Shown piece after piece: positions 8,585 through 45,909 of a DNA stretch of 64,000 nt. A program made the translations under genes and the position numbers. The stretch's first letter is position 1, and each line of letters begins with the position of its first letter. Source of the stretch: Bradyrhizobium sp. WSM471 (GTDB lineage: Bacteria; Pseudomonadota; Alphaproteobacteria; Rhizobiales; Xanthobacteraceae); contig NZ_CM001442.1 in assembly GCF_000244915.1 (NCBI RefSeq), positions 868,001 through 932,000 of the forward strand, in the 5' to 3' direction. Under the pieces are notes generated by a model. That model was not told where the DNA came from and searched no databases. It saw only the letters and a program-made list of their open reading frames with translations.

Positions 8585-8646
8585 CGAGAAACGGCACCGA
8601 AGAGCCGGCGTTGTTGGCACGGCCAAACCGACCGGAGGACCCTAGA

Positions 8647-9180
8647 ATGACCACCCTTTGCTTGCGCTACGGGAGGACCGCAAAAATCCTGCACTGGACG
8701 ATCGTCGGTCTCCTGGCCGTGCAGTATCCGATCGGCTGGTTGATGCCGGACGTCCACCGCGGCCAGACACCGGGTGCTCCGATGACCTTCCACGTCTCCA
8801 TCGGGATCGTAATCCTTGCGCTTATCGTTGTGCGTTTCGTCTGGCGATTGACACATCCGGTTGCGCCGGAAACCTCGCTTGTGGCGTGGCAGCGCCTGAG
8901 CTCGGAGGTCGTGCACTGGATGCTCTACATTTCAGTGCTGGCGACGACCCTCACCGGTTGGCTGTTCGCGTCTTACCGCGGTTGGTCGCTGAAGTTATTT
9001 TACCTCGTTCCGCTGCCGATGCTCGCGTCCGACAACGCGGCCGCCGGAAAGGCTATCGACGGGCTGCACCAGGCGGCGGAGTGGTCGTTGCTTGCGCTGA
9101 TAGGGATCCACTTGGCTGCCGCACTGGCGCACATCTTCGTTTACCGCGACCGCGTGATGCAACGGATGCTCCCCGAGTGA
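8647..9180 (+). CDS. Cytochrome b561 family protein (CybB-like)
   Basis: A 177-residue four-helix membrane cytochrome. Histidines lie at the expected places: KILHWTIVGLL (helix 1), TFHVSIGIV (helix 2), VVHWMLYISV (helix 3) and GIHLAAALAH (helix 4), consistent with two b haems that oxidise quinol or superoxide. ATG at 8647 is preceded by GGAGGACC. The gene follows the permease by 62 bases. It is a different subfamily from the 5890 cytochrome. Confidence 0.88.
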   Translation: MTTLCLRYGRTAKILHWTIVGLLAVQYPIGWLMPDVHRGQTPGAPMTFHVSIGIVILALIVVRFVWRLTHPVAPETSLVAWQRLSSEVVHWMLYISVLATTLTGWLFASYRGWSLKLFYLVPLPMLASDNAAAGKAIDGLHQAAEWSLLALIGIHLAAALAHIFVYRDRVMQRMLPE

Positions 9181-9269
9181 GATGGAGCGGCTCGCGAGGA
9201 AAGCGTGCGGGGGACGACGATGCGGGCCCTTTAGGGACGGCTCGATCAGGACCGCGGGCGTGCCCGCAG

Positions 9270-9307
9270 TGTTCCGAGTTAGGAACAAACTGCCGTTTTT
9301 TCCTGTT
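9270..9307 (+). promoter_or_regulatory. Candidate EcfG promoter overlapping a TGTTCC dyad
   Basis: GGAAC at 9282-9286 and TGTT at 9304-9307 are 17 bases apart, matching the EcfG general-stress consensus GGAAC-N16/17-(C/T)GTT. The -35 is also the right arm of a dyad, TGTTCC-N6-GGAACA (9270-9287). The downstream gene starts at 9345. Confidence 0.45.
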
Positions 9308-9344
9308 GTTCCTTGCCGGCGACTGCCGGCGTAAGGAGGAAGAT

Positions 9345-9579
9345 ATGGAGCTCAGGCCGTTTGCTGCCGCAGGTCTCGTTTTAGCTTCCGTCGCTCCGGC
9401 CCTAGCGGCCAACGAATTCTGCATCGCTCAGGATATGAAGACGAAGAAGTGCACGATCCTCGACAAGAAGCCGACGGATACCTCCATGATCGTCGTCAGC
9501 CGGTCTGGCACCATCTACAAGACACGCGCGGAAGGCGGAGACCGGCATGGAGACGGTCAAGGTCTGTTCATCCAAGTGA
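9345..9579 (+). pseudogene. Small exported protein, frameshifted near its end
   Basis: ATG at 9345 follows a strong AAGGAGGA site and opens a signal peptide (MELRPFAAAGLVLASVAPALA), then NEFCIAQDMKTKKCTILDKKP. The normal family ending, ETGMETVKVCSSK with TGA at 9577-9579, is present one base out of frame. One extra G near 9533-9541 explains it. The as-read frame would run on into the P450 start region. The family is a short cysteine-containing periplasmic protein of unknown role. Confidence 0.7.
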
Positions 9580-9631
9580 TGGACAATCGCCCGGAGGCGT
9601 CCACCTTCGCCCCACCCGGGCGCCCACCCCC

Positions 9632-11026: not shown

Positions 11027-11099
11027 GGTAGAGCCGACGAGGAGCGCGCTCCCCAGTCCGGCACTGAGCCCCCGCGACACTCCTTCGTACCAGCATTGG

Positions 11100-12029
11100 T
11101 CATGCCGACTTCCGCCGCGCCCTGGCCGGCGGCTTCTTGGCTGCGGATTCCTTGGCGGGCTTCTTGCCGGCGATCGGCATCAGCATCTCCTTCTGGCCGG
11201 CGGCCACCTTCTTGGCTTTTTTGGCCGGACTTTTCGCAGCCTTGCTCTCTGCAGCTGCGCCGCCGACGCTCTTGCGTAGCGCGTCCATCAGGTCGACGAC
11301 GTTCTCGCCTTTCGGCCGCTCCTTGGGGCGGATGGTCTTTCCGGCGCGCTTCTGGTTGATGAGCTCGATCAGAGCGGTCTCATAGTGGTCCTCGAACTTC
11401 TCCGGCTCGAAGTTGCCGGCCTTCTGGTTCACGATGTGCCTGGCGAGATCGAGCATGTCCTTCGTCACTTTGACGTCCTGGATCTCGTCGAAGTATTCCT
11501 GCTCGCTACGAACCTCGTAGGGATACCGCAGCAAGGTGCCGACCAGACCCTTGTCCATCGGCTCGAGCGCGATGATGTGCTCGCGGTTCGTCAGCACCAC
11601 CCGCCCGATAGCGACCTTGTTCATCTCGCGGATGGTCTCGCGGATGACCGCGAACGCGTCGTGGCCGACTTTTCCGTCAGGACGGATGTAGTAGGGACGG
11701 ATCAGATAGCGCGGATCGATGTCGGCCTTGTCTACGAACTCGTCGATCTCGATGGTCCGCGTGGATTCCAGCGCGATCTCCTCAAGCTCCTCCTTGGTCA
11801 CCTCGATGAACTGGTCCTTCTCGAGCTGGTAGCCCTTGACGATGTCCTCGTTGGGCACCTCGTCGCCGGTCTCGGCGTCGACTTTCAAGTACTTGATCCG
11901 ATGACCGGTCTGACGGTTGAGCTGGTTGAACGAGATCTTCTCGCTCTCCGACGTCGCCGGATAGAGCGCGACCGGGCAGGTGACGAGGGACAGACGCAGG
12001 AAGCCTTTCCAGTTTGCTCGCGGGGCCAT
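11100..12029 (-). CDS. ku: Ku DNA end-binding protein (NHEJ)
   Basis: A 309-residue bacterial Ku. It begins MAPRANWKGFLRLSLVTCPV and contains the family segments RTIEIDEFV, PYYIRPDGKVGHDAFAVIRE and MLDLARHIV. It binds double-strand breaks as a homodimer and recruits LigD. After about residue 250 the protein has a long Lys/Ala tail (KSPAKKAKKVAAGQK ... PPARARRKSA), an extended basic C-terminus of the kind that affects DNA sliding and ligase recruitment. ATG at 12029 was chosen because conserved Ku sequence begins there; the frame is open upstream. LigD lies 1.7 kb away in opposite orientation. Confidence 0.96.
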   Translation of the reverse strand: MAPRANWKGFLRLSLVTCPVALYPATSESEKISFNQLNRQTGHRIKYLKVDAETGDEVPNEDIVKGYQLEKDQFIEVTKEELEEIALESTRTIEIDEFVDKADIDPRYLIRPYYIRPDGKVGHDAFAVIRETIREMNKVAIGRVVLTNREHIIALEPMDKGLVGTLLRYPYEVRSEQEYFDEIQDVKVTKDMLDLARHIVNQKAGNFEPEKFEDHYETALIELINQKRAGKTIRPKERPKGENVVDLMDALRKSVGGAAAESKAAKSPAKKAKKVAAGQKEMLMPIAGKKPAKESAAKKPPARARRKSA

Positions 12030-12198
12030 GGTTACGCAACGCTCCAGGTACGGGTACTTGGATTCAAGACGAACCGGGCAGCGCGGTTCCGACACCGGCC
12101 ACAGGTGTCCACCGCGAATTGATGTCACGTCCGGTCAGGCCCCCGAGAGACATGGCAGGGAGCCTTGACTCTCACGAACAAAATAAGAACATAGCGTG

Positions 12199-12423
12199 AT
12201 GAGCCAACCCATGGCATCCGGACCGGCCAACTTCGAGTTGGAGAATGCCGCCGACCAGGCGATTGCGGCCTGTGGGGGCGACGCCCGGGAAGCTCTCAAG
12301 GCGCTCATCGTCGCGAATGGCTTCCTGGAGGCGCAGGTCGAAGAGCTGCGGGCTTCGATTTCTGCCGGCTACTCGCGGGGCCGGTTCGACGTCCCGCGCG
12401 ACCGGAAGGATTGGTACGACTGA
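12199..12423 (+). CDS. Small hypothetical protein with helical motif
   Basis: A 74-residue protein, MSQPMASGPANFELENAADQ at its start and ending DVPRDRKDWYD. Its centre (CGGDAREALKALIVANGFLEAQVEELRASIS) looks like two amphipathic helices. It is two bases before the next gene (TGAC-ATG), so the pair is probably co-transcribed. It diverges from ku across a 170-base gap. I recognise it only as a type of small protein common in Bradyrhizobium. Function unknown. Confidence 0.6.
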   Translation: MSQPMASGPANFELENAADQAIAACGGDAREALKALIVANGFLEAQVEELRASISAGYSRGRFDVPRDRKDWYD

Positions 12424-12424
12424 C

Positions 12425-12673
12425 ATGCCCGCGGTGACCTACCATGTGGCTCTGCCGTTCCTCCCTTCCGATGACGGTGTCGCCGCCGGCGAGGCCGTCG
12501 AATGCTTCAATCCCAACGCCGCCGTGATGAAAGCCGAGGCGCTTTCGCGAAGGCCCGGCATAGTCGGCGCGGTGGCCTTCAGCCGCAGCGGGGATCCGGC
12601 TACAGGCGAGTTCGGAGACGCAATCGTGATCCGCAAGTTCGGCGACGTGCCGGACGATCTGAGCACCCTGTGA
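12425..12673 (+). CDS. Small hypothetical protein
   Basis: An 82-residue protein beginning MPAVTYHVALPFLPSDDGV and ending FGDVPDDLSTL. The central FSRSGDPATGEFGDAIVIRKFG segment suggests a compact alpha/beta fold. No signal peptide, membrane segment or metal motif is seen. It starts one base after the previous gene, which supports an operon with 12199-12423. Confidence 0.6.
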   Translation: MPAVTYHVALPFLPSDDGVAAGEAVECFNPNAAVMKAEALSRRPGIVGAVAFSRSGDPATGEFGDAIVIRKFGDVPDDLSTL

Positions 12674-12715
12674 AGGGACGCGCGGAGAAGTTCTGCGCGG
12701 AGCCCCGCAAGCCCG

Positions 12716-13183
12716 CTACCTTCCGCTGAGCGACAGGCTCATACGAGTGACAATGTTGTCCCAGGCGCGCTCTTCTTCCTCTGCGGGGTAGTTGATCAGG
12801 ACGCAATGGATTAGCTGCCCCGAGAAGTTGCAGCGGTTGTACCAAACCTTGTCGCCCTTGTAGCTGGAGACCGCAAAGAAGCGTGGTGTCACTCGCTTGT
12901 ACTGAATGCGTGAAGGCGGATGCTTTTTGGCGAGAAAGGCCGCGGGTGAATCGTTCTCGACGTTGGGCGCGGCCTGGATCGTGATGTCGGCACGCCCGTC
13001 GGCGGTTCGGAACCGTTGCCCGTAGCCGTCGGGTCGGCCAGCTTCTTCCGTGAAGATCGAAGATGGAAAATCCATCGAGGTGCCGGTCTGGGGAATGGTG
13101 TACTTACTCCATCGCACCGGCTGCGCCGAGGCCGTCGCTGTCGAGACGACAAGTGCCAATGCGAGAGCGCTCGTCGACTTCAT
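12716..13183 (-). CDS. Exported conserved hypothetical protein
   Basis: A 155-residue protein with a clear signal peptide (MKSTSALALALVVSTATASA-QP). The mature domain starts WSKYTIPQTGTSMDFPSSIF and contains two cysteines (NRCNFSGQLIHCVLINYP) that could form a disulphide. It ends with EERAWDNIVTRMSLSL. It is a periplasmic protein of unknown function. A 7+7 base dyad lies 36 bases upstream of its start. Confidence 0.72.
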   Translation of the reverse strand: MKSTSALALALVVSTATASAQPVRWSKYTIPQTGTSMDFPSSIFTEEAGRPDGYGQRFRTADGRADITIQAAPNVENDSPAAFLAKKHPPSRIQYKRVTPRFFAVSSYKGDKVWYNRCNFSGQLIHCVLINYPAEEEERAWDNIVTRMSLSLSGR

Positions 13184-13218
13184 CGCACTTCCCTCCGACT
13201 ATCACGGAGCAAAAAGCC

Positions 13219-13237
13219 GGAACGTCAAATACGTTCC
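13219..13237. promoter_or_regulatory. Perfect 7-bp dyad upstream of 12716-13183
   Basis: GGAACGT-N5-ACGTTCC forms a perfect inverted repeat 36 bases upstream of the minus-strand start at 13183. Position and symmetry suggest an operator for a dimeric regulator. It also contains GGAAC but lacks a correctly spaced -10, so I do not call it an EcfG promoter. Confidence 0.35.
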
Positions 13238-13396
13238 AGACGCCTGATGCTATGGATTGAAAGCGGGCGCGCTACTCGTCTTCCTCGTGGGGACCACTGG
13301 GATCGAGCTTGGTCAGCCTGGTATCCCCGCCGGGCGAGAACCCGCCAACTCGAAAGGCGACGGTGATAGCGCCTCCGGTGCTTCAGCCGCGTGGTG

Positions 13397-13573
13397 TCAG
13401 GCGGCCCGCAACGGGGACGTCGGACGACGGAGCCGGCCGACCTCCTCCGCCTGGCACCTCGGACACCTGAACTGGATTTCGCGTTGCGCGGAGGCGAGCT
13501 CTTGGATTTTCGCCGCCATAGGCCATGCGCCGCATTGGGGACATTTTTCCAGCAGGCTCTCCGATTCTATCAT
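13397..13573 (-). CDS. Small zinc-ribbon protein
   Basis: A 58-residue protein, MIESESLLEKCPQCGAWPM, with a second pair FRCPRCQAEEVG about 28 residues later. The CPxC...CPxC layout is a classic zinc ribbon. ATG at 13573 was preferred to an upstream in-frame start because it places the first CPxC near the N-terminus. It diverges from the LigD gene. Role unknown. Confidence 0.55.
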   Translation of the reverse strand: MIESESLLEKCPQCGAWPMAAKIQELASAQREIQFRCPRCQAEEVGRLRRPTSPLRAA

Positions 13574-13684
13574 CGCACTCGCTCCTTCCCGCGTCCTCAA
13601 CTCGCCAACGCTCGGAGACAACCCGCGTTCCGGACGTAGTCCTGGACGACACGGAACGAATCAGCGCGACCGCGTTGAATCGGC

Positions 13685-15502
13685 ATGTGTGCCGTGGCGT
13701 TGCGTCAATCCCGTTTCGGAGTATCGCGTGTCCATGGCGCCGTCAAAGCTGCTATTCCTGGTTACATCGAGCCGTGTGATCCCACTCTGCGCGAAAAGCC
13801 GCCGCGCGGCGAAGACTGGGTCTACGAGATCAAGGCCGACGGTTACCGCGCACAACTGCACTTGCAAGAGGGCGACATCAAAGTTTACTCGCGCACGGGC
13901 CTTGACTGGACGGAGCAGTTCTCCTCGATCGCAGCGAGCGCCCACCTGCTCAAGGCACACAGCGCGATCATCGACGGCGAAGCGGTGGTGTACGGCAGTG
14001 GCGGCCTGCCGGATTTCCAGCAGCTCAGGAGGGAGCTCGGCCGAATGCGCAGCGAGCGTGTGCGGTACCACGCCTTCGATCTTCGCTACCTCGATGGCTA
14101 CGACCTGCGCCGCGTCGTGTACGAGGAGCGCAAGCGTTTGCTGCAGCGGCTCCTGAAGGGCGCGCCTGAAACCTTCATCTATGTCGAAGGGATTCGGGCG
14201 AACGGCAAGCAGATTTTCGAAAACGCTTGTAAGATGGGGCTTGAAGGTCTCGTCGCCAAGCGACTCGGCGAGCCCTATCGCTCGGGGCGGCAGGACAGCT
14301 GGGTCAAGCTCAAGTGCAAGAAGAGCGAGACCTTTCCGATTGTCGCGTTCGTCGAAAAGCTGGATGCGCGCCCCCGCAAGGTCGCGTCCCTCTACGTCGG
14401 CCGGCGCCAGAATGGCAAGCTGCTCTACGCCGGCAAGGTGCGTACCGGCTACACGGAGACGACGGCGCGCGAATTGCGCGAGCGGCTGGATCCGTTGATT
14501 CGGAAGACTTCGCCGCTCGATGTCGCCGTCAAAAAGCCCAAGGCGACGTGGGTCGAGCCTACCCTAGAAATCGAGGTCCAGTATGGCGCGCTGACCGATG
14601 ATGGTCTGCTTCGCGAAGCCGTGTTCAAGGGTTTTCGAGACGATCTTGCGCTACGCAAGGTCAAGGCGCCGCGGCTGGTGCCGTCCGCAGCCGGCCGGCC
14701 GAAGCTGGGTGTCCCCCGAGAGAACATCCTGCAGCTTCTGCCCGACGCCGTTGTGCCGTCAAACGAAGAACTCGCCGACTACTGGCGCAGGGTGTGGAAG
14801 AAAGCCCTCCCGCACCTCGGCCATCGCCCGCTCAAGCTGGTGCGTCGCGTGCACGGCACCACCTTCTACCACAAGGGGCCGCTGCCGAAGGACATTCCGG
14901 CCGCCGTGCACCAGCTCCGGATTCAGAAACGCGAGGGCGGCGAAGGCACGCGCCTGTGGGTTGACAGCCTGGAAGGCTTTCTGGGCCTTGTCGAGATCGG
15001 GGCGGTCGAGCTGCACCCGTGGAATGCGACTGTCGAGGACTTCGAGCATGCCGACCGCATCGTCATCGATCTCGATCCCGGGGAGGGCGTCGACTGGGAT
15101 GCCGTCGTGGAGACTGCGCTCGCTCTGCGCACACTGATGAAACGCGAGGGCTTCGAGACCTGGCCCAAGCTCACCGGCGGCAAAGGAATCCATCTGATGG
15201 CGCCGCTGGATCAGCCGGTGCTGCACGATAAGGCGCATCGGGTGGCGCATCAGCTGGTGGCCGCTTTCGCAGCGCGCCATCCACACCGCTACCTCTTGTC
15301 TGCGCAGGCAAAGCGTCGCGATCGCATCTTCCTCGATTATCTGCGAAATGGCCGCGGTACCACGGCCATCGGCACCTATTCCCCGCGAGCCCGGGAGGGA
15401 TTTCCGATCGCAGCGCCCGTGACCTGGAAGCGGATCGAGGGCGGGATCGCGCCGGACGCCTTCACCATGGACAATCCATTCCGCGCCAAGTCGAGAAGGT
15501 AA
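13685..15502 (+). CDS. ligD: LigD: ATP-dependent DNA ligase plus primase-polymerase, no phosphoesterase domain
   Basis: A 605-residue NHEJ enzyme. Residues about 25-300 are the ATP-dependent ligase domain with adenylated Lys50 in YEIKADGYR, plus DGEAVVYG and EGLVAKRL. From about 320 on is the archaeo-eukaryotic primase-type polymerase domain, with catalytic aspartates in VIDLDPGEG (about residue 462) and KLTGGKGIHLM (about 495). The 3'-phosphoesterase domain of full-length LigD (850-900 residues) is missing. The start is uncertain: ATG at 13685 is in frame, but MAPSK from 13735 reads one base out and resembles a normal LigD N-terminus, so a small indel may have altered the start. It works with Ku. 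Confidence 0.93.
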   Translation: MCAVALRQSRFGVSRVHGAVKAAIPGYIEPCDPTLREKPPRGEDWVYEIKADGYRAQLHLQEGDIKVYSRTGLDWTEQFSSIAASAHLLKAHSAIIDGEAVVYGSGGLPDFQQLRRELGRMRSERVRYHAFDLRYLDGYDLRRVVYEERKRLLQRLLKGAPETFIYVEGIRANGKQIFENACKMGLEGLVAKRLGEPYRSGRQDSWVKLKCKKSETFPIVAFVEKLDARPRKVASLYVGRRQNGKLLYAGKVRTGYTETTARELRERLDPLIRKTSPLDVAVKKPKATWVEPTLEIEVQYGALTDDGLLREAVFKGFRDDLALRKVKAPRLVPSAAGRPKLGVPRENILQLLPDAVVPSNEELADYWRRVWKKALPHLGHRPLKLVRRVHGTTFYHKGPLPKDIPAAVHQLRIQKREGGEGTRLWVDSLEGFLGLVEIGAVELHPWNATVEDFEHADRIVIDLDPGEGVDWDAVVETALALRTLMKREGFETWPKLTGGKGIHLMAPLDQPVLHDKAHRVAHQLVAAFAARHPHRYLLSAQAKRRDRIFLDYLRNGRGTTAIGTYSPRAREGFPIAAPVTWKRIEGGIAPDAFTMDNPFRAKSRR

Positions 15503-30879: not shown

Positions 30880-32286
30880 GTGTCGAGACCCCAGCGAGTC
30901 TATAGGCAGGTCGTGCTTTCGATGTCGGTCCTCTTGCTCCTGGCAGCCGGCGCCGCCGCCCAGGAGGATAAGAAGACCGACGACGACAAGCCTGCCGACC
31001 CGGACACGGGTGAGAGCACCGTGGAGGAAAAGACGCTCGGCCTTCTTCCTAACCCACTGCAGAAGTATGGCGTGAAGTTCGCTGCCACTTACATCGGCGA
31101 GGCGTTGGGTAACGCTTCCGGCGGCCTGAAGCAGGGCGCTATCTACGAAGGCCGTCTCAACCTTGCGGTGGATGTCGATCTGCAGAAACTCGTCGGCATC
31201 GACAAGCTCACTTTTCACGCCAACATGTTCCAGATCCATGGCGACGGCCTGTCCCGGAGCAATCTTCAGAACTTCTTTGTCGTCAGCGGAATCGAGGCTC
31301 TACCCTCAACGCGTCTTTACGAAGCGTATTTTGAGAAGCAGTGGGGCGCGAAGAGGATCTCGGTGAAAGTGGGTCAGCTTGCCGCCGACAGCGAATTCTT
31401 CAACACCAAGTATACAGACGTGTTCACCAACGCCTCAATGGGTTGGCCCGCGATCACGTCGCTCAATCTTCCCAGCGGCGGACCGTCGCCACCTTTGGCG
31501 GCTATGGGCGCAAGGCTACTGGTCAACGTGACCGACCAGCTCTCCGTTCTGGGTGGGATCTTCGACGGCGACCAAGCAGGACCGGGATCGGGCGACCCGC
31601 AGGAGCGCAATCGCTACGGCGTCAATTTCCGCGTCAACGATCCACCGTTGCTTCTAGGTCAGATCCAGTACGCCTGGAACAACAAGAAGGGCGATCCCAA
31701 CCTGACCGGCCAGATCAAGTTTGGCGGCTGGCGGCACTTCGGCGCTTTCGCGGATCAACAGCTCGCGTCGAACGGCGTCTCGTTCGCCGCTCCCGGTAGC
31801 AGCGGAGAGCCGCTATTGCTCGCAGGAGACATCGGTGGCTGGGCGGTCTTTGAGCAACAGATCTACCGCGTGTCTCGCAGCGACGATCGCGGGATCGGTG
31901 TGTTCGCAAGGGCCGCCGGCGCGCCCGCTGATCGCAACCTGATCGATCTATACGCTGATGCCGGCGTCGAGTTCATCGGGCTTCGTGACGACCGGCCCTA
32001 CGACAAGTTCGGGATCGCCGCGGGCTATGCCCATGTGTCCAAACGGGCGCAGGCGCTCGACGCCGATTACCGCACGCTGGTGAATCCCAACTGGCCCTCG
32101 CGAAACTTTGAGGGATTGCTGACGGCGGTCTACCAATACCAGATAAAGGACGGCTGGTCGTTGCAGCCGAACTTCCAATACATCATCCACCCCGGCGGCG
32201 GCGCTACGGGGCCGGCGACGCCATTCGCCGGAAAGGTCCTCAAAAACGCGTCGGTGTTCGGTCTAAGGACGACGTTAAAATTCTAG
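30880..32286 (+). CDS. OprB-family carbohydrate-selective porin
   Basis: A 468-residue outer-membrane protein with signal peptide (SMSVLLLLAAGAAA-Q), a short acidic linker (EDKKTDDDKPADPDTGE) and a beta-barrel domain. Features typical of OprB are LYEAYFEKQWGAKRISVKVG, SEFFNTKYTDVFTNASMGWP, DLYADAGVEFIGL and the C-terminal aromatic (RTTLKF). The start is GTG at 30880. It should let sugars across the outer membrane. No sugar transporter is adjacent, but GH13 and GMC/DUF1080 genes lie 5-10 kb away. Confidence 0.9.
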   Translation: MSRPQRVYRQVVLSMSVLLLLAAGAAAQEDKKTDDDKPADPDTGESTVEEKTLGLLPNPLQKYGVKFAATYIGEALGNASGGLKQGAIYEGRLNLAVDVDLQKLVGIDKLTFHANMFQIHGDGLSRSNLQNFFVVSGIEALPSTRLYEAYFEKQWGAKRISVKVGQLAADSEFFNTKYTDVFTNASMGWPAITSLNLPSGGPSPPLAAMGARLLVNVTDQLSVLGGIFDGDQAGPGSGDPQERNRYGVNFRVNDPPLLLGQIQYAWNNKKGDPNLTGQIKFGGWRHFGAFADQQLASNGVSFAAPGSSGEPLLLAGDIGGWAVFEQQIYRVSRSDDRGIGVFARAAGAPADRNLIDLYADAGVEFIGLRDDRPYDKFGIAAGYAHVSKRAQALDADYRTLVNPNWPSRNFEGLLTAVYQYQIKDGWSLQPNFQYIIHPGGGATGPATPFAGKVLKNASVFGLRTTLKF

Positions 32287-37141: not shown

Positions 37142-39016
37142 CTACGTCAGCGTCCAGATCCGTCCATAATGCGATGGGATATTTAGATCTACTTGCCGGA
37201 GCGAAAGCACGTTCCTCAGGTCGAGAGCGCCGCCATGCAGCTCTTCGGCGTAGTCACCGGCCATCGGAAACCAGAACGGGACGGTCCGGTCGGTGTCGCT
37301 GAAATTGACAGCGACCAACGTGTAGTGGGCGCCTGCGTAGCGCGCGAACAGCAGAACACCGAACTGCTGATACCGGTTCCAGTCATTGAAGAAGAAGTAC
37401 GTGCCCTGACGCATGTGGTCGCGCTGCCGCCGGATGCGCAGCAGCTTGCGGACCAGGCTCACGATCGGCCGGCCGGACTCATCGTAGAAGAAGTCCCACC
37501 GCATCGGCCGCAAGAGCGAGACGCGGCCCATTCCGAAATCGGGCAGAAAATAGTTTTCGGCGAATTCCTCGCATTGCCAAAGCATCGGAATCCCCTTGCT
37601 CATCAGCAGGCCGATTAAATAGGGCTGCAGCATGTACCAGCGCGCCCGGTCGCCCTCGGCGAACAGAGGATTGCCAGCTTCGTCGGGATTGGAGGTGCCG
37701 AAATTGCACAGAAAGCGCTCGTGATCGTGATTCTCGATGTACTGGAGCGCGGTCTTGGGGATGTCGTCGCCGTTGACGGTCTCCCGGTCGGGGTAGCCGA
37801 AGAGACCAAGCTGCAGGCCGAGGTCGGCGAGCCGGCCGCGATCCCCCTGGGCCACCGCGCGTGCCGCGCCATAGGTGCCGTTCTGCCACGTGCAGTTGGA
37901 ATAGGTCGAGCGCAGCACGTCCTCCGGAGCTTCGAGCTGTTCGGCCATCTGCACGAGCCTCAGCGGCTTGCCGGCGCCTGCGTCGAAGCGGCTCCAGTAC
38001 GGGCGACCCGCCGCGATGTTCGCCCTGGTCAGCTGGTGCGTCTCATAGACGAGGCTCGCATAGCCCACGCCCATCGGCCCGTCCCAGTAGTTCGGAACGC
38101 AGTCGTATCGAAAGCCGTCGACGTGATAGACTTCGAGCCAATGGTGATTGGCCGTAAAAAAATAGTCCCGCGTGATCTCCCGATTGAAATCCGTGCTCTT
38201 GCCGAAGTTGCTGAAGTAGTCCTTGGCAAACGGCCCCATGAACGGATTATCGCGGTACTGCAACCGCGTGTAGGCGTCGTAGTAAGGAAAATCCACGCCC
38301 GTATGGCCATAGACGACGTCCACGATCACCGCGATCCCGTGCTGATGGCAGATGTCGACTAGCTGCTGGAAATCCGACCGCTTGCCGAACCGCTCGTCGA
38401 CACCAAAATAGCCGATCGGCAGATAGCCCCAGTCCACAGAGTTTCCGACGTTGGACAGCGGCATGATCTCGATGGCGTTGATCCCGAGGTCGGCCAGGTA
38501 GGCAACGAGCTCGCGAGCGCGGTCGAGGTCGTTGCCGAACTCGGCGATGTTCACCTCATAGAGGATCAGGTCGGCCAGCGCGGGCGTACGCCATTGCGCC
38601 TCGCCGGCACTCCAGACGTAGGGCTCATAGCCCAGGGTAAAGGCGGATTGCTTGCCGACACCGAACTCGCGCGCGAAGGGGTCGATGATCCAGTCGAGCG
38701 TGCCTACGCTCGGGTTCGTGATCGTGTAGCGATAGACGTAGCGGCCCGGATTGCCCCAGGCTGAGCCCGGGACTGCAGGCGGCGTGCCGGCGATTGGCAC
38801 CGCGACCGACCAGAAGTCCCCATACGGCGGACGAAAACTGTGTGTGAGCTGAAATTCCCGAGCCGGAAATGCCTGAAGAAACTGATCTGCCTCATGGATG
38901 ATCTTAACGGTGACGACGTTGCCATCGGCCGCCGACACCCAAGGCAGCCAGAATCCGAACGTCATGGTGCCGCGTGCTTCGACGGCGCCCAACGATCCGA
39001 GTGGCATCAAGTTCAT
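37142..39016 (-). CDS. GH13 alpha-amylase family glycosidase
   Basis: A 624-residue enzyme. The N-terminal 120 residues form a beta-rich domain like the CBM48/isoamylase N-terminus (YRYTITNPSVGTLDWIIDPF). The catalytic barrel has VIVDVVYGHTG (region I), DGFRYDCVPNYW with the nucleophile Asp (about residue 302), a likely acid Glu in the MAEQLEAPED strand (about 357), and YIENHDHERF with the transition-state Asp (about 433). There is no signal peptide, so it acts in the cytoplasm. ATG at 39016 overlaps the stop of the GMC/DUF1080 gene by ATGA, so both are made together. Exact specificity (branching, maltogenic or trehalose-related) is not readable. Confidence 0.88.
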   Translation of the reverse strand: MNLMPLGSLGAVEARGTMTFGFWLPWVSAADGNVVTVKIIHEADQFLQAFPAREFQLTHSFRPPYGDFWSVAVPIAGTPPAVPGSAWGNPGRYVYRYTITNPSVGTLDWIIDPFAREFGVGKQSAFTLGYEPYVWSAGEAQWRTPALADLILYEVNIAEFGNDLDRARELVAYLADLGINAIEIMPLSNVGNSVDWGYLPIGYFGVDERFGKRSDFQQLVDICHQHGIAVIVDVVYGHTGVDFPYYDAYTRLQYRDNPFMGPFAKDYFSNFGKSTDFNREITRDYFFTANHHWLEVYHVDGFRYDCVPNYWDGPMGVGYASLVYETHQLTRANIAAGRPYWSRFDAGAGKPLRLVQMAEQLEAPEDVLRSTYSNCTWQNGTYGAARAVAQGDRGRLADLGLQLGLFGYPDRETVNGDDIPKTALQYIENHDHERFLCNFGTSNPDEAGNPLFAEGDRARWYMLQPYLIGLLMSKGIPMLWQCEEFAENYFLPDFGMGRVSLLRPMRWDFFYDESGRPIVSLVRKLLRIRRQRDHMRQGTYFFFNDWNRYQQFGVLLFARYAGAHYTLVAVNFSDTDRTVPFWFPMAGDYAEELHGGALDLRNVLSLRQVDLNIPSHYGRIWTLT

Positions 39017-41481
39017 GCCACAGCGCCTTCCAACGACTTCCACTGAATGTTGCGAAAGAACACGCGGCCCGTATGCGTTTGCAGGCCGACGAAGCGCGGG
39101 TCTTGCGAGGTGGACGGCAGGCCGCGGCGCGGAGACTGCGGATCGCCGGCGAAATGGAAAATGTTTACCGCCTGCCCGTTCAGCGCGACCGTGATGTCGG
39201 CCCCATCGACGGTGATCTCATAGTTGTTCCATTCTCCGACCGGATGGACGATCAATGGACCGTCGGTTGGCCCCTTGAAGGCGTAGACTGCCCCCGTCCT
39301 GTGGATCGGCGCATTGTCTGGACGGGCCAATTCGTCGATCTGAATTTCGAAGCCGAAGTTGACGCCGACATAGGCCGTGTTGTCGTAGCCTTCGTTTCGA
39401 GGGTCGGGGAAGCCGATGAAGACGCCCGAATTGTCGTCGGGTGCCGTCATCATCCATTGCAGCCGCAAAACGTAGCGAGGCGGGGTCGGGCGCTTCAGCC
39501 AGAGCAGCCCCAGGTCGGTCCCCGTTCGCGCCTCGAGAACGCCGCGCCGTACCCGGAACGAGCCAGGGTCGTCCCGACCGAGCTGGTTGCTGATCGTCGA
39601 CATTGTCCAGTCCCCCAGAGAGGTGCCATCGAACAGCGTCTCGAAACCCGCCTCGGCCACGAAGGCTGGAGGCGTCATGATCCGGTCGCCGGTGCGGCGC
39701 GATAACGCTATCCCGGTCAGCATCGGGTTGGGCGAACCGATGCTCGGGAATAGCGCCGGGCCCGCCGCATACAGGTTTTCGGTGTGATGGAAGCGTCCGT
39801 TGCCGTCGGTGACGCTCGCCGTCAAATCGGTGCCCATCCAAAGAGTTCCGGCTTCATGATGGGTCGTCCCGAGCCCGTCCTGGTTGCTCTGGAGCACCTG
39901 CATGGGCTGACCGTTGGCGAAGGCGGCGGCGACCTTCTGCATCGCCGCATCCATGGCGGCCCAGAGATCCCGATCGCGCTGCGTCGGCGTCAGCGCAACC
40001 GATGCGCGACGAACACCGTACTCGTCGGTCCGCGAGCTCAGATCAACGCGGCTTGGATGAGCCGCAGGATTGGCCGGATCGGCGGGCTCCATCTCTCCGA
40101 GCCCTCTGATCGCAATTGCAACATGCGTATCGGTCGAGGTCTTCAGCTGATCGAAGAAGTCAACGTCGGGCACCTTGCGGTAGAGCTCGTCCTCGGCACC
40201 GATGGTGTTGGCGCCGCCGCTCGCGGAGATCTGAAGGTGGAAGTGGCCGATCAGATCACCATTCGGGCGCGTGGCCCGCCCCTTCACGAACAGGGCCGCG
40301 GTCTGCAGCTCGTTCACCACTGCGGAAAGCCCGGAAATCGCCGACCGCGGCACGCGGACGACGAGGTTCGAGCGAAGGTGCGCGATCAGGTTCTTGCCGA
40401 TGAGCGGCAGGGTCGAAAGTCCGGTGGCATCGAACGATGCGAGAGCCAGCCGCGCGTTCTCGATCGTGCCGAGGGCCATGACGACCACACCACCCGGTGC
40501 CAAATCTATCGGACCTCGGCTGGTGTCGATGCCCGAGATGCGCCAAGTCCCTGCTGAGGTAGGAACGCTGCGCAGCGTGAGCACATGCGTGTCGGGCAGC
40601 ACCATGAATTCCTTGACGGAATCGCTGCCGTTGGAGTCGCTCGCCGCGGTCCGAGCAGCCTTCATCAGCAGCGGAACGACGCTGAACTTGTTCAGGGGAA
40701 AGAACCCCGCGTGTGGCGCGCGCGCCTGCACAGCAAGCGGCGCTTCCAGCTTCAGCAGGTTCAGCAGGTCGTTTTGCGAAAGCCCGCCGCTCGACGACAG
40801 GCCAAGCAACTGTGCGGGGTCGGCGCCGGGCTTCAGCAGCGGAGACGGCGGGAGCGCGTCGAGCGCGAACGCTCCGGGCACGCTCGACAAATTGTCGAAG
40901 AGCTGGCGACGCAGCGCATTCTGCAATTCGCCGAAAATGAAGTCGTTCGCCTCATCGACACCGATCTGGCGAGAACTCTCATCGAAATAGCGGCTGTTCA
41001 GATCGGCTACGGTGTTTGCGGGCCAACCCAACATCTCCTCGTCCAGCAGACGAGGCGACCAACCGCCCCAATAGAGTGATCGGCCTCCGAGCGTATACGC
41101 TAGTCCCTTGAAGGGAATGGTCGACTTCCAAGGAATGCCCCACACCTCGTTGCGCGGCGGCTCCGGCTGCGGCAGGTTTTCGTTCAGAAAGAACGGATTG
41201 GCCGGATCGGCAAACCCCTGGATTCCCGTGTTCTGGACGTGCTCAGGAACGGTGAACAGCCCGGCGTCTACGACCAGTGTCCGTAATCCGCCGCCACTCT
41301 GCTTCTGACGAAACCACAGATGCTCCGCGATAGCCGAGCCGAACGTACCGCCTCCCACAATGATGAAATCGAACGGACGCCCGCCTGCGGATTTCCATGC
41401 ATCGACCTCCGCGAGATTGTTGCAGAGATAGCGGCCTTGAATGTCTTTGGTGAACGAGGTCGTCTCCGTTGTGATCGGCAT
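39013..41481 (-). CDS. GMC-type FAD oxidoreductase fused to a DUF1080 (3-keto-disaccharide hydrolase) domain
   Basis: An 822-residue two-domain protein. Residues about 35-600 are GMC-like: FIIVGGGTFGSAIAEHLW (FAD-binding GxGxxG), THHEAGTLWMGT with the catalytic-type His (about 537), and NLYAAGPALFPSIGSPNPML with the conserved Asn. After a linker, residues about 610-815 are a DUF1080 concanavalin-like domain: FETLFDGTSLGDWT, DDNSGVFIGFPDP and NNYEITVDGADI. In Bacteroides, DUF1080 proteins hydrolyse 3-keto-glycosides, and relatives of GMC enzymes (glucoside 3-dehydrogenases) make them. One chain could therefore do both steps. There is no signal peptide or Tat motif. Substrate is inferred, not shown. 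Confidence 0.85.
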   Translation of the reverse strand: MPITTETTSFTKDIQGRYLCNNLAEVDAWKSAGGRPFDFIIVGGGTFGSAIAEHLWFRQKQSGGGLRTLVVDAGLFTVPEHVQNTGIQGFADPANPFFLNENLPQPEPPRNEVWGIPWKSTIPFKGLAYTLGGRSLYWGGWSPRLLDEEMLGWPANTVADLNSRYFDESSRQIGVDEANDFIFGELQNALRRQLFDNLSSVPGAFALDALPPSPLLKPGADPAQLLGLSSSGGLSQNDLLNLLKLEAPLAVQARAPHAGFFPLNKFSVVPLLMKAARTAASDSNGSDSVKEFMVLPDTHVLTLRSVPTSAGTWRISGIDTSRGPIDLAPGGVVVMALGTIENARLALASFDATGLSTLPLIGKNLIAHLRSNLVVRVPRSAISGLSAVVNELQTAALFVKGRATRPNGDLIGHFHLQISASGGANTIGAEDELYRKVPDVDFFDQLKTSTDTHVAIAIRGLGEMEPADPANPAAHPSRVDLSSRTDEYGVRRASVALTPTQRDRDLWAAMDAAMQKVAAAFANGQPMQVLQSNQDGLGTTHHEAGTLWMGTDLTASVTDGNGRFHHTENLYAAGPALFPSIGSPNPMLTGIALSRRTGDRIMTPPAFVAEAGFETLFDGTSLGDWTMSTISNQLGRDDPGSFRVRRGVLEARTGTDLGLLWLKRPTPPRYVLRLQWMMTAPDDNSGVFIGFPDPRNEGYDNTAYVGVNFGFEIQIDELARPDNAPIHRTGAVYAFKGPTDGPLIVHPVGEWNNYEITVDGADITVALNGQAVNIFHFAGDPQSPRRGLPSTSQDPRFVGLQTHTGRVFFRNIQWKSLEGAVA

Positions 41482-41723
41482 TGCCCGCCTCCTGGTGCAA
41501 TCCTCGGACTCGCATGCCTATTACGACACGATTTCCTTCAACCTAAAATGAGCTAGTTCACAGATTGCTCTTCTTTGAGTGCCGCACCCAAAAGGCCCGC
41601 TGCGGCGACCGGTTCTTAGACCATCGCGTTCAAATCCTCGCACACAATAGCCAGAGACCTGTTCAGGTCAGAAATCCAGTCTATCGCGGGTGGCCCCTTG
41701 CACTCCTTCGCTCGATCTTTGGC
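41482..41723. other. Intergenic region, probable promoter area
   Basis: About 240 bases between divergently oriented operon start and a convergent stop. No gene is seen. The minus-strand promoter of the GMC/DUF1080 operon should be here; no clear operator was found. Confidence 0.45.
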
Positions 41724-42632
41724 TCAACCCTTCGTGCTGGCGGTCTTGTCGAGGGCCGCGCGCAGACCCTGCGCGAGCTTCACTGCGTCGTCGTTCGCCC
41801 AGAAGTGCATGAAGAACAACCTTGGCTGCTCATCGAGCATGTGACTGTGCAGCGCAGTCACCTCGATGCCGTGCGCCCGCAGCGCCAAAATGACCGGGTT
41901 GACCTCGTCGCCGGTCAGCACGAAGTCGCCCGTGATGGCGGCCTTGCCTCCTCCGGTCGGCTGAAAGTTGATGCCAATCGCGACGCCCATTGGGCCGACC
42001 GGTGTCAATGGCATGCCGTCCTCCGTGATAGGATCCCGCCGCTTCACGTTGAACTGGTAGACGCCGCCATTGGCCTGCCCTTTGACGCCGATGATACGGT
42101 CGAGCCTCGCCGTGTCCAGCTCGACTGCGGGCGGCGGGCTCGCCGGTGCCGTGATCGTTAGCGGTGTCTTGCTCTCGGCAAGTGCGTCATGAATTGCCGA
42201 GGCCAGTTTGACGGGATCGCCGTGGCCGGCGACGTGCATGTAGAACGTCGCCGGGCTGGCGCGGAGTAGATGATTGTGTACGGCGGTAATTTCGAGACCG
42301 CTCGCGATCATCTTCGCCATGACGGGATTGATTTCAGTCTCGAGCAGCACAAGATCGCCCATGACCATTGCGCCGCCATGCGCAGGCTTGAACGCGACCC
42401 AACCGCCAAGCGCCAGCGCCGGCTTCACCGTGACGCCGTCCAGAGTCACGGTGAGATCGCTGCGAGGGAAGCCGTAGCGCCGGACATCGTCCGAAACGGC
42501 GGGCTTGCGACCCAGGGTCTCATCCACCTTCTGCCAGTTGGCATCTTGGGCGTACGCCGGGATGAAGGCCGCGAGGCGGAACGCAAAAAGGCAGACGCCG
42601 GTGACTGTCAGAGCCGAGATGAATTTTTTCAT
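41724..42632 (-). CDS. DUF1259 (LppY/LpqO-like) exported protein
   Basis: A 302-residue exported protein (signal helix ALTVTGVCLFAFRLAAFIPA). It contains two copies of the DUF1259 repeat: ITAVHNHLLRASPATFYMHV, then GDPVKLASAIHDAL, and VTALHSHMLDEQPRLFFMHF, then DDAVKLAQGLRAAL. Each unit begins with a conserved HxH. Preceding strands (YQFNVKRRDPITEDG and FQPTGGGKAAITGDF) also match the family. Family function is unknown. The neighbouring PepSY-like gene is probably co-transcribed. Confidence 0.88.
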   Translation of the reverse strand: MKKFISALTVTGVCLFAFRLAAFIPAYAQDANWQKVDETLGRKPAVSDDVRRYGFPRSDLTVTLDGVTVKPALALGGWVAFKPAHGGAMVMGDLVLLETEINPVMAKMIASGLEITAVHNHLLRASPATFYMHVAGHGDPVKLASAIHDALAESKTPLTITAPASPPPAVELDTARLDRIIGVKGQANGGVYQFNVKRRDPITEDGMPLTPVGPMGVAIGINFQPTGGGKAAITGDFVLTGDEVNPVILALRAHGIEVTALHSHMLDEQPRLFFMHFWANDDAVKLAQGLRAALDKTASTKG

Positions 42633-42649
42633 TGTGCGACTCCTCAACC

Positions 42650-42883
42650 TCAGTTTCGTTCTTTGATCTGGCCGCTGCTGTCGACGACGAGCGTCACCGG
42701 CTTGCCGTCCTTCACCGCCTTGGCGGCGATGCCTTCGGCCGTGGACTTGACGTCTTTCACCTGCGAGTAGCCGGCCGCCTGGATCTTGGCGATGAGCTCC
42801 TCCTGAGTCAGGGCGTGGACGGGCGAGAGCCCCGCCGCAAGGGTCACGATTATCGCTACCTGATAGATCGTCGATGTTCGCAT
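42650..42883 (-). CDS. PepSY-like exported small protein
   Basis: A 77-residue protein with signal peptide (YQVAIIVTLAAGLSPVHA) and a single PepSY-like domain (IAKIQAAGYSQVKDVKSTAE, then VTLVVDSSGQI). ATG at 42883 is preceded by AGGAG. It is upstream of the DUF1259 gene by 17 bases and similar in plan to 21674-21994. Confidence 0.75.
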   Translation of the reverse strand: MRTSTIYQVAIIVTLAAGLSPVHALTQEELIAKIQAAGYSQVKDVKSTAEGIAAKAVKDGKPVTLVVDSSGQIKERN

Positions 42884-42932
42884 GTCTGATCTCCTGGTTG
42901 TCCCAGCCCCAGAAGTAGTCCCGCATCCGGCC

Positions 42933-43151
42933 TCACCCGACCTTGTTGGCCGGCCCATCGTGCGATCCCCTGATCGTGTCGCGGCAACATCGGTCGTGTA
43001 GGAGGAGACCTGGGTTCACCCGCTCGATGGCGTCGTCGAACATGCGCGAAGCGCCGCGCGAAGCCGCGAGCCGGCCCAGCGTCGGCGCGGCCGCCGAGCC
43101 TACCGATCGAGATAGTTTGTCGGGTGAAAGGTAGGTGTACAATGCTGACAT
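42933..43151 (-). CDS. Small hypothetical protein
   Basis: A 72-residue product, MSALYTYLSPDKLSRSVGSA, then FDDAIERVNPGLLLHDRCCR. Its middle is Ala/Gly/Arg-rich. It lies 50 bases upstream of the PepSY-like gene. No family was recognised, and it could be a truncated gene. Confidence 0.4.
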   Translation of the reverse strand: MSALYTYLSPDKLSRSVGSAAAPTLGRLAASRGASRMFDDAIERVNPGLLLHDRCCRDTIRGSHDGPANKVG

Positions 43152-43471
43152 GCTGCGCCCTTCGTGATCAGGACGCGATTCTTGAGCATGACGCCTCGCG
43201 GGGAGATCGCATATCCCCGTCACGCGACTAAAAACTCACTCGGCCAGGCTGTCAACCCGCGATCGCTCGGGCGCGTGAAACCGAACGTCACGAAAATTTC
43301 ACCGCCGTCCGGAACGGAAGCGACTCTCCCCTACGTCAACACGCCAATCAAGAAAGCCGCCGCTTGAAGGATCCACGCGATATCACGTAGACTGCCTGGG
43401 CGGGATTAAGCAGACTCCCGGCGAGACTTCGGTCCAAGCTCTGCGCAGCACGCAACACGTGGAGCTTGCGC
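43152..43471. other. Divergent intergenic region
   Basis: About 320 bases between divergent genes, with no convincing ORF. The promoter of the Cj0069/FetAB operon should be here; no clear known operator was found. Confidence 0.4.
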
Positions 43472-44506
43472 ATGGACACCGACAAACACTCCTCTGCCCG
43501 ACGCACCGTAGCCACCCTCTCGCGAGGAGACGCCGCCGCGCGTCGAGATGCCACCCCGAAAAGCGGCCGCTTCGTCGACGTCTTCGATGCGCTTGCCGCC
43601 GTCGGCGTCCAAGGGCGCCCCGTGATCTACGACGAGAGCTTCGCAGACGCCGTCCGCGAACAGCTGCTCGCGGTTGACGGCGTACTCGTCTGGGTCAACC
43701 CTATCCAAGACGGTCGGAACCGGGCCGGTATCGATGCCCTGCTGCGCGACGTCGCCGCGCAAGGCGTTTGGGTAAGCGCTCATCCGGACGTAATCCTCAA
43801 GATGGGCACCAAGGAGGTCCTCTATCGCACCCGCTCCATGGGCTGGGGAAGCGACACGGCGCTGTACCAAACCGCCGCTGCGATGCGCGCGGAGCTGCCG
43901 GCGCGGCTCGCCTCCGGCCCGCGCGTGATCAAGCGCAACCGGGGCAACGGTGGCCAGGGCGTCTGGAAGGTCGAGAAGCTGCCGACCTCATCCATGATCA
44001 GGGTGCTGGACGCGACCAAAGACACGCCCGAGGAACTGACGCTGGACAATTTTCTCCGCCGCTGTGCGGAGTATTTCGAGAACGGCAGCGTGATCGACCA
44101 GGCGTTCCAGCCTCGCCTGAGCGAGGGCGTGGTGCGCTGCTACATGGCAGGCGACCGCTGCGCCGGCTTCGGCCATCACAAAGTCAAGGCCCTGGTCGAC
44201 TCGCCGGCTGCGCGCGCCGAGGCTGGACCGCGGCTCTACTCGTCCAACGCAGACCCGCGCTTCCAGCGGCTGCGTCGGGTGATGGAAGACGAGTGGACGC
44301 CGCAGCTGACCTCGTTGCTGGATATCGCGCGAGGCGACCTGCCCGCGATCTGGGACGCCGACTTCATGCTGGGACCCGTCCAGGCGGACGGGAACGATAG
44401 CTACGTGCTCGGCGAGATCAACGTCAGCTCTGTGCATCCGTACCCGGCCGAGGCGCCGGCGGAGATCGCCCGTCGGGTTGCCGATCGCTTGCAGCTCAAG
44501 GTTTGA
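43472..44506 (+). CDS. Cj0069-family, ATP-grasp-like protein
   Basis: A 344-residue cytosolic protein. ATP-grasp-like elements are visible: VIKRNRGNGGQGVWKVEKL (nucleotide-loop strand), RFVDVFDALAAVGVQGRPVI (N-terminal fold) and YVLGEINVSSVHPYPAEAP (metal-binding E-x-N strand). It matches proteins annotated as the Cj0069 family. It is three bases before a FetA-like ATPase and a FetB-like permease, so all three likely form one operon. The enzyme might ligate or modify a metal-binding small molecule, which is an inference. Confidence 0.75.
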   Translation: MDTDKHSSARRTVATLSRGDAAARRDATPKSGRFVDVFDALAAVGVQGRPVIYDESFADAVREQLLAVDGVLVWVNPIQDGRNRAGIDALLRDVAAQGVWVSAHPDVILKMGTKEVLYRTRSMGWGSDTALYQTAAAMRAELPARLASGPRVIKRNRGNGGQGVWKVEKLPTSSMIRVLDATKDTPEELTLDNFLRRCAEYFENGSVIDQAFQPRLSEGVVRCYMAGDRCAGFGHHKVKALVDSPAARAEAGPRLYSSNADPRFQRLRRVMEDEWTPQLTSLLDIARGDLPAIWDADFMLGPVQADGNDSYVLGEINVSSVHPYPAEAPAEIARRVADRLQLKV

Positions 44507-44509
44507 CGC

Positions 44510-45106
44510 ATGCTGACGGTCAGCAGGCTCAAGCGCTTGCACATCTCAGTGTCATTCGATCTGCAGGACGGCGAATGCGTCGCCCTGCAGGGACCATCCG
44601 GCGTCGGGAAGACCTTGCTGCTTCGCTCAATCGCGGACCTCGACCCCAACGAAGGGGCGGTCAAGCTTGACGGAACGCCTAGGGAGTCTATGCCCGCCCC
44701 CACCTGGCGAAAGCGAGTGACCTATATCGCCGCCGAGCCGGGCTGGTGGTCCGACATCGTGCAGGAGCACTTCACGGCCTGGGATGATGCGCTACCGCTG
44801 GTCATGCGTCTTGGCCTTCCAGACGACTGCGGACCTTGGCCGGTTCAGAGACTTTCGACGGGCGAGAGACAGCGATTGGGGCTTGTGCGGGGGCTGATGC
44901 TGCGGTCGCGCGTCCTGCTACTGGATGAGCCGACTTCGGCGCTCGACTCGGCATCCGCCGCCACCGTCGAGGCTTTGATTGCCGAACGTGTCGCGGACGG
45001 AACGAGCGTCATCTGGAGCACCCATGATGACGCTCAAGCGCGACGTGTCGGATCAAGGATATTCGCGATGAGCCCTGACGGCGGCATCAAGGAAAGCCGG
45101 CAGTGA
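44510..45106 (+). CDS. FetA-like ABC transporter ATPase
   Basis: A 198-residue ABC ATPase: Walker A GPSGVGKT, Q-loop region, signature LSTGERQRLG, Walker B RVLLLDEPTSALD and the switch His in IWSTHDD. It is small, like E. coli FetA (YbbL). It is followed by a FetB-like permease with GTGA overlap, so the pair forms one exporter. The E. coli relatives export iron and protect against peroxide; here metal and direction are inferred. Confidence 0.88.
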   Translation: MLTVSRLKRLHISVSFDLQDGECVALQGPSGVGKTLLLRSIADLDPNEGAVKLDGTPRESMPAPTWRKRVTYIAAEPGWWSDIVQEHFTAWDDALPLVMRLGLPDDCGPWPVQRLSTGERQRLGLVRGLMLRSRVLLLDEPTSALDSASAATVEALIAERVADGTSVIWSTHDDAQARRVGSRIFAMSPDGGIKESRQ

Positions 45107-45909
45107 CGTACATTCAGCTTTCGTACGGCGATCTGATCCTACCCGCGCTCCTTGTCGTCATGGATGGCGTCCTCTCGCTTGTTCTCCGCCTCAAACTTGA
45201 GAAGCAACTGGCCATCGCGACCGTCCGGATGGTCGTTCAGCTCGTTCTCGTCGGATACGTGCTGGCGTTCCTGTTTGCCGCGGTCTCGCCGATTTGGACC
45301 GCACTCGCCGCGTTCATCATGGTTCTCTTCGCCTCGCGGGAAATCGTCGCGCGGCAGAAGCGGCGTCTTACGGGCGTCTGGAAATACGGCCTGGGAGCGA
45401 CATGTACGCTACTCGCTGCCGGTACCGTCACGATGTTCGCGCTCCTGACCGAGTTACGCCCCGATCCTTGGTACCATCCGCGCTATGCGCTGCCTCTGCT
45501 GGGCATGATGTTGGGCAACACCATGACCGGAATAAGCCTTGGCCTGGACGTGCTGACGAACAGCTTGGTGCGGGAACGGGCCGCCGTAGAAGCTTGTCTG
45601 GCACTAGGCGGCACCCGACACCAAGCAATGCTCCCGATCATACGGGACGCCTTGAGAAGTGGGTTCATGCCGATCATGAACAGCATGGCGGCGATCGGCC
45701 TCGTTTCTCTGCCCGGGATGATGACCGGCCAGATCCTTGCCGGCGTCGAGCCGGTCGATGCGGTCAAATATCAATTGCTGATCATGTTCCTGATCGCCGG
45801 CGGCACCGGCCTGGGAACGCTGGCGGCCGTCCTGGGAGGCGCTCGCCTGCTTACCGACCATCGACACCGGCTACGTCTCGATCGCATAGCCGCCGGGAAG
45901 TCCGGATAG
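45103..45909 (+). CDS. FetB-like permease (UPF0014/YbbM)
   Basis: A 268-residue permease with about six to seven helices. Family landmarks are IATVRMVVQLVLVGYVL, FIMVLFASREIVARQKRR, LGMMLGNTMTGISLGLD, and MPIMNSMAAIGLVSLPGMMTGQILAG (split: IGLVSLPGMMTGQIL). GTG at 45103 overlaps the ATPase stop. Together they resemble FetAB. The Cj0069-family gene upstream makes this a three-gene unit. Confidence 0.9.
   Translation: MTYIQLSYGDLILPALLVVMDGVLSLVLRLKLEKQLAIATVRMVVQLVLVGYVLAFLFAAVSPIWTALAAFIMVLFASREIVARQKRRLTGVWKYGLGATCTLLAAGTVTMFALLTELRPDPWYHPRYALPLLGMMLGNTMTGISLGLDVLTNSLVRERAAVEACLALGGTRHQAMLPIIRDALRSGFMPIMNSMAAIGLVSLPGMMTGQILAGVEPVDAVKYQLLIMFLIAGGTGLGTLAAVLGGARLLTDHRHRLRLDRIAAGKSG

Follow-up and report, generated by a model that had tools for sequence, protein, structure and literature searches.

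A fused oxidoreductase gene and a glycoside hydrolase gene lie together on the minus strand of a 64,000-nucleotide stretch of the Bradyrhizobium sp. WSM471 genome, referred to here as the window. Upstream of the pair are a ChrL-type gene, a PepSY_2-like gene, and the elements chrB-a and chrB-b, the latter ahead of a divergent run of genes. The features are as follows.

30880..32286: gene for an OprB carbohydrate-selective porin, about 5 kb past the GH13 gene, with a relative in locus L006
37142..39016, minus strand: GH13 alpha-amylase-family enzyme of 624 aa, with D305, E359, and D431 intact (PF00128 match)
39013..39016, minus strand: ATGA overlap of the fusion stop with the GH13 start
39013..41481, minus strand: GMC oxidoreductase-PF06439 (3-keto-disaccharide hydrolase) fusion of 822 aa, a single chain with GMC first and PF06439 second
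39037..39648, minus strand: PF06439 domain, fusion residues 612-815, with NSGVF, ExQID, TGAVY, GEWN, LNG, and LQxH kept
39703..40053, minus strand: GMC C-terminal domain PF05199, fusion residues 477-593, with the catalytic-type His542 and Asn585
41338..41355, minus strand: FAD-binding GxGxxG motif, fusion residues 43-48 (GGGTFG), from alignment A1
41724..42632, minus strand: ChrL-type protein (PF07485, DUF1259; LppY/LpqO) with a hydrophobic N-terminus
42650..42883, minus strand: PepSY_2-like protein of 77 aa (23.5 bits, short of the 24.3 that Pfam requires) with a hydrophobic N-terminus
43149..43223, minus strand: chrB-a (RF03078), a cis-regulatory element ahead of the genes that run on the minus strand
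43400..43444, plus strand: chrB-b (RF03086), a cis-regulatory element ahead of the divergent genes
43472..44506, plus strand: DUF6815 protein of the divergent run, which has a relative at 76% identity in the locus of the paralog
44510..45106, plus strand: ABC ATPase of the divergent run
45103..45909, plus strand: UPF0014 permease of the divergent run

The first-pass annotation had reported GMC motifs and a complete DUF1080 (PF06439) domain in one 822-residue frame, and the Pfam matches bear this out. PF05199 was matched at 57.2 bits (cut-off 24.6) and PF06439 at 105.2 bits (cut-off 26.8), the latter over profile positions 1-187 of 187. A database search placed both domains in one chain in 117 of the best 120 of 1976 relatives (E 1e-3 or better). 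With the paralog described below as the query, both were in one chain in 120/120 of the matches listed. Source names among the fusion matches listed include Bradyrhizobium, Nitrospira, Deltaproteobacteria, and Roseicella. A structure prediction in which both domains were modelled jointly gave a pTM of 0.87. Since the same chain recurs in listed relatives from many sources and the joint model scores this well, an error of assembly or gene calling that merged two genes is rejected. Nothing was found in its favour and its probability is negligible. Neither the fusion nor the GH13 enzyme has a strongly hydrophobic N-terminus, which agrees with the earlier claim that both lack a signal peptide.

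Judged from their sequences, both halves appear to be known kinds of enzyme. The first pass had also noted that the fusion was not familiar as a described enzyme. This stands for the literature, where searches gave no description of a GMC-PF06439 fusion, and searches on sugar enzymes within chr clusters gave nothing on it either. It does not stand for database names, as the JGI name “3-keto-disaccharide hydrolase/GMC oxidoreductase” is already borne by two such proteins (P0067 and P0091). As far as the searches go, the searchable literature does not describe a leaderless chain with GMC before PF06439 that is coupled to GH13.

The residues that would be required for activity were checked, and the FAD motif, the His-Asn pair, the PF06439 motif, and the GH13 triad are all kept. 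In alignment A1, which holds the window fusion and 87 of 240 listed fusion proteins (88 sequences), G43, G45, and G48 of the FAD motif are invariant. His542 and Asn585 are each at least 90% conserved in A1, and they align with the His and Asn of the C-glycoside oxidase 7dve. STHW is presumably the motif of pyranose oxidases, and the fusion has SLYW at that place; FAD is therefore probably bound non-covalently. In some pyranose oxidases FAD is bound covalently via a His (PMC11650716). The His-Asn pair is catalytic and essential in the glycoside 3-oxidase PsG3Ox (PMC10646112), to which the fusion is likened by description, the residue alignment having been made to 7dve. The pyranose oxidases and glycoside 3-oxidases PsG3Ox, DaCGO1, and OPOx have this pair as well and appear to share the GMC fold with the fusion (PMC10646112, PMC11650716). 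They differ in being about 16-21% identical, and the window fusion adds a C-terminal PF06439 domain and falls short of the pyranose-oxidase equivalogue TIGR02462 (35.1 bits, cut-off 544.9). A fold comparison that covered the GMC part placed oxidases among its nearest structures.

The PF06439 half keeps its motifs much like stand-alone PF06439 proteins do. The stand-alone proteins were those of G440, for which 5/6 loci gave a frame and one (L057) looks wrong. The motif residues are the family-conserved ones, and no paper that assigns the catalytic ones among them was found. The exported neighbour called “cep”, which is found near some relatives of the fusion, is without most of these residues in the alignment.

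Given the domain reading, the ATGA coupling, the leaderless proteins, and the kept residues, “oxidise C3, then cleave” is still the most likely chemistry for the fusion. The GMC half would form a keto-glycoside by oxidising a hydroxyl of a glycoside or sugar, with C3 of a glucosyl unit as the most likely position. The PF06439 half would then break the glycosidic bond weakened by the keto group, which would pull the reaction forward and free a sugar. The coupled GH13 enzyme could supply or trim the alpha-glucoside. The substrate, the C3 regiochemistry, and the electron acceptor are those that we infer. In Caulobacter, the lactose 3-dehydrogenase LacABC and the PF06439 protein CCNA_01705 have been proposed to work successively in lactose use (PMC9007349). 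The Caulobacter proteins are separate, periplasmic, and for lactose, whereas the window has one leaderless chain that is coupled to GH13 and whose kin are often in chr-type islands. The 3-ketotrehalose hydrolase BT2157 of Bacteroides shares the PF06439 domain with the fusion (PMC9007349) but is a single-domain protein.

The window’s genome (G000) possesses a second fusion (G000:C1:3260018-3262426; 8019-10427 of locus L049). This paralog is about 36-43% identical to the window fusion (36% over 97% of the paralog). In a midpoint-rooted tree of 39 chosen rows, the two are in separate deep clades. One acidobacterial row and L068 group with the window fusion and L095 groups with the paralog; a Nostoc fusion is a long branch of uncertain placement. 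Profile searches, in which no more than the best 2 to 4 candidates of each genome were scored, gave a match at 1e-40 in 29/242 genomes within the genus, 3/297 genomes in one phylum, and 2/296 in another. At 1e-60, only the window’s genome was matched among 385 of the class, and likewise among 200 of the phylum.

The overlap of the fusion stop with the GH13 start by ATGA, noted in the first pass, was confirmed at 39013-39016. D305, E359, and D431 are presumably the GH13 catalytic Asp-Glu-Asp, going by the usual GH13 motifs. They are invariant in alignment A2, which consists of the window GH13 and 16 of 120 listed relatives (17 sequences), all at least 79% identical to the window’s GH13. The best NCBIfam matches were TreZ (123.3 bits, cut-off 538.8) and GlgB (at most 100.6 bits, cut-offs 463.95 and more), yet these are far under the equivalogue cut-offs. 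A GH13 structure model from a shallow alignment (pLDDT 40.1) was set aside.

GH13 was looked for in 17 loci of subfamily 1, to which the window fusion belongs (the window, L001-L008, L058, and L061-L067). It adjoins the fusion in 13/17, in one of these with a split frame (L006). The ATGA junction is present in the window, L001, L002, and L006, and a few bases separate the two genes in L003 and L005. L008 has the two genes in the opposite order, 9 bases apart. In L004 GH13 has shrunk to about 62 residues, and it is absent next to the fusion in L066, L067, and the broken copy L007. Decay is thus seen in both genes: the fusion is broken in L007 and lies in two frames in L089, and GH13 is a remnant in L004 and split in L006. 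In 12 other Bradyrhizobium fusion loci (L049, L068-L077, and L079), GH13 was found in 0/12 within the 18-20 kb read.

Features of chr type lie upstream of the fusion. The PF07485 family is taken here to be LppY/LpqO; the PF07485 gene is called ChrL-type, and its neighbour in relatives “cep”, by resemblance to the published descriptions of ChrL and cep. In the window the ChrL-type gene and chrB-a are adjacent, and ChrA and ChrB are not near the fusion. With a gap of about 240 bases from the PF07485 gene to the fusion, a single operon of the two is only a possibility; no terminator pattern was found in 41450-43500. The literature searches found nothing on chrB RNA motifs, and chrB-a is known here by its Rfam name and type. 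The DUF6815, ABC ATPase, and UPF0014 run (43472-45909) recurs opposite the PF07485-fusion run in relatives. The paralog locus L049 holds a near-copy of the chrB-a, PepSY, and PF07485 cassette; genes for exported PF06439-like and HbpS-like proteins are present in addition, and GH13 is absent from the stretch read.

Linkage of this kind was counted in 29 genomes with 31 fusion loci between them. In 24/31 the fusion has chrB-a or a PF07485 gene within 10 kb, where random placement expects about 0.31. The 24/31 is descriptive and not a p-value, since these are fusion-bearing loci, mostly from one genus, and hence not independent. Each of the two markers is within 10 kb in 21/31 loci, and ChrA in only 4/31. 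In subfamily 1 a marker is within 10 kb in 10/16 loci, and in the other fusion loci in 14/15. Seven loci lack one, six of them in the window fusion’s own subfamily: G412 accounts for two, and G342, G345, G397, G235, and G411 for a single one each. The G235 copy is broken, with a marker 22-23 kb off, and in G411 chrB-a is 10.2 kb off. In the reverse view, a fusion is within 10 kb of 21/39 PF07485 genes and 26/82 chrB-a elements. Each PF07485 gene was counted by one domain row (41 for the set of 33 matches, 39 for the 31 loci). The broken G235 copy was kept; G237 and G424, with 583-residue frames matching GMC only, are in the 33-match set and were left out of the 31. A third G000 match (1690286-1691332), a 431-residue frame without the PF06439 part, was also left out. 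Distances were taken from matched stretches, and in many rows (G438, G439, and most of the paralog’s clade) these cover the gene incompletely.

Within the window’s own genome, the only two PF07485 genes (four domain matches, two each) are both at the two fusion loci. Two of its three chrB-a elements are there also (104 of 1367 candidates scored). The third heads a chrB-chrA pair at 4.87 Mb, with the genome’s single ChrB, and another chromate-transporter pair at 6.09 Mb is without chrB-a. Rfam scans covering the window plus 14 loci detected chrB-a in 12/15; L066 has chrB-b only, and L005 and L008 have neither. Among 14 control genomes, chrB-a was found in 0/14. L070 has no PF07485 gene, and chrB-a is directly ahead of an MFS-fusion run.

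Other stress-type genes are present near some fusion relatives. These include ChrB, ChrA (L066, L073, and L095), Fe/Mn SOD, SOD-rhodanese, GST, RND efflux, MFS, LysR regulators, and HbpS-like genes. An exported PF06439-like protein resembling “cep” was found in 16/29 loci (the 17 of subfamily 1 and the 12 other Bradyrhizobium loci). A hydrophobic N-terminus was seen in the PF07485 and PepSY proteins, and likewise in cep and the HbpS-like protein. In Rhizobium, L005 has ChrB, PF07485, and SOD-rhodanese near the fusion, and in the plasmid locus L058 genes that belong to the ChrB and ChrA clusters lie some 10 kb from it. ChrB/ChrL or ChrA is beside the fusion in two genomes outside Proteobacteria. 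L008, from a MAG labelled Mycobacterium whose contig may be wrongly binned, brings together ChrB, PF07485, UPF0014, GH13, and the fusion, with a beta-propeller gene nearby. L095, from the same phylum, has a ChrA-type gene, ABC, and UPF0014 with the fusion.

Many of these genes are known from chromate resistance determinants. The Arthrobacter FB24 protein ChrL is a lipoprotein of the LppY/LpqO type; chromate raises its transcript and its loss lowers resistance (PMC2751784, PMC7060636). Cupriavidus has chrB2A2CF-cep-chrL, in which cep encodes an exported ConA-like protein (PMC7060636). PF07485, a cep-like protein, SOD, ChrB, ChrA, and the beta-propeller of L008 recur around the fusions as in these determinants, but the available portions of the two papers mention no fusion or GH13 gene (PMC2751784, PMC7060636). 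Chromate-transporter and SOD genes are among the candidates in serpentine-soil Mesorhizobium, and the available part of that study does not mention the fusion either (PMC5315480).

This recurrence beside chromate-resistance-type genes suggests a stress role over simple sugar feeding, and the genomic setting makes a part in a stress regulon the likelier purpose of the fusion. The sugar pathway that the first-pass annotation implied for the fusion and GH13 is conceivable, but most neighbourhoods point elsewhere (24/31 near chr-type markers; GH13 in 0/12 of the other Bradyrhizobium loci). The preferred reading, given slightly less than an even chance, is a cytoplasmic fusion that oxidises a sugar and cleaves the 3-keto-glycoside, is coupled to GH13, and serves as an accessory of a chr-type stress regulon. 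The module would be downstream of chrB-a and the ChrL-type gene in a regulon for chromate or a related oxyanion, and with this placement the electrons or keto-sugars from internal glucan would probably serve redox defence over plain feeding. Chromate would be expected to induce the module, which may contribute to resistance. Genes of an island can, however, travel together without a shared function.

Plain nutrient catabolism would have GH13 and the fusion degrade imported or stored alpha-glucosides by a 3-keto route, with the chr-type genes as mere island neighbours. Such sugar use is possible given the six of 16 own-subfamily loci without markers within 10 kb and the OprB gene about 5 kb from GH13, which has its relative in L006. 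The fusion and GH13 are kept together without chr markers within 10 kb in three loci of two genomes (L006, with its split GH13, L062, and L063), and the successive action proposed in Caulobacter offers a precedent (PMC9007349). The neighbours are annotated in part, and a shared sugar transporter may sit among the rest. Nutrient use as the whole explanation is nevertheless unlikely, as the chr linkage recurs in distant clades and the paralog’s clade retains it without GH13.

The GMC half could instead be a redox-defence dehydrogenase that feeds quinones or reduces chromate, with PF06439 serving only for carbohydrate binding or as a scaffold. The chr determinant of FB24 does contain another accessory flavoprotein, the malate:quinone-oxidoreductase-like ChrJ, whose loss lowers chromate resistance (PMC2751784), and SOD, GST, and HbpS-like genes are near the fusion in some loci. 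This alternative is rather improbable, as the PF06439 motif is strongly kept although, as the cep proteins illustrate, this fold need not retain it, and ChrJ itself is held by its authors to be an unlikely Cr(VI) reductase (PMC2751784). Direct chromate reduction by the fusion is possible and unproven. By analogy, the fusion may work like ChrJ, with electrons from a small metabolite, without being placed in the ChrJ family.

The stress-regulon reading can be extended to a fuller scenario, which is doubtful but conceivable. Under chromate-type stress, GH13 would mobilise internal alpha-glucan and the fusion would burn it; the electrons or enolisable keto-sugars would then detoxify the oxyanion or repair the redox balance. 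If true, no 3-keto-glycoside enzyme would have been placed in a regulon for metal-oxyanion resistance before, as far as the searches go. The recurrent chr-type setting gives a large unnamed family a testable function and connects the redox chemistry of carbohydrates with the tolerance of soil bacteria to metal oxyanions. Two candidate genes are added to chromate-resistance determinants whose accessory genes remain unexplained.

A few fusions are in other settings. No chr gene was seen among the annotated neighbours of the Nostoc fusion and of Acidobacteriota L089 and L090. On the Nostoc plasmid the fusion is 31% identical, and the GH13 lying 3.4 kb downstream of it is 26% identical. Genes for an M4 peptidase, emfourin, a DyP-type peroxidase, and a patatin-like protein accompany the two there (L059, 6564-21249). 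The DyP-type peroxidase gene is directly before the Nostoc fusion and a tyrosinase gene adjoins an Acidobacteriota fusion, which would fit a GMC half that is an oxidase whose hydrogen peroxide is used by a peroxidase or oxidase encoded nearby. The oxidases among the nearest structures by fold to the GMC part would fit as well. No such partners are among the annotated Bradyrhizobium neighbours, and this explanation is very unlikely.

The L090 fusion (8511-13799) is between the tyrosinase gene and an AbiE-type pair, of which the antitoxin match is below the cut-off. The M4, DyP, fusion, and GH13 proteins of Nostoc have no hydrophobic N-terminus in any of the four. An Azospirillum plasmid (L060, 10031-12576) encodes only the end of the GMC part and PF06439, under a short family 16 glycoside hydrolase annotation, and an M4 peptidase gene follows this short protein. 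The M4 peptidase and patatin neighbours on the Nostoc and Azospirillum plasmids raise the idea that the fusion could be exported alongside other leaderless enzymes.
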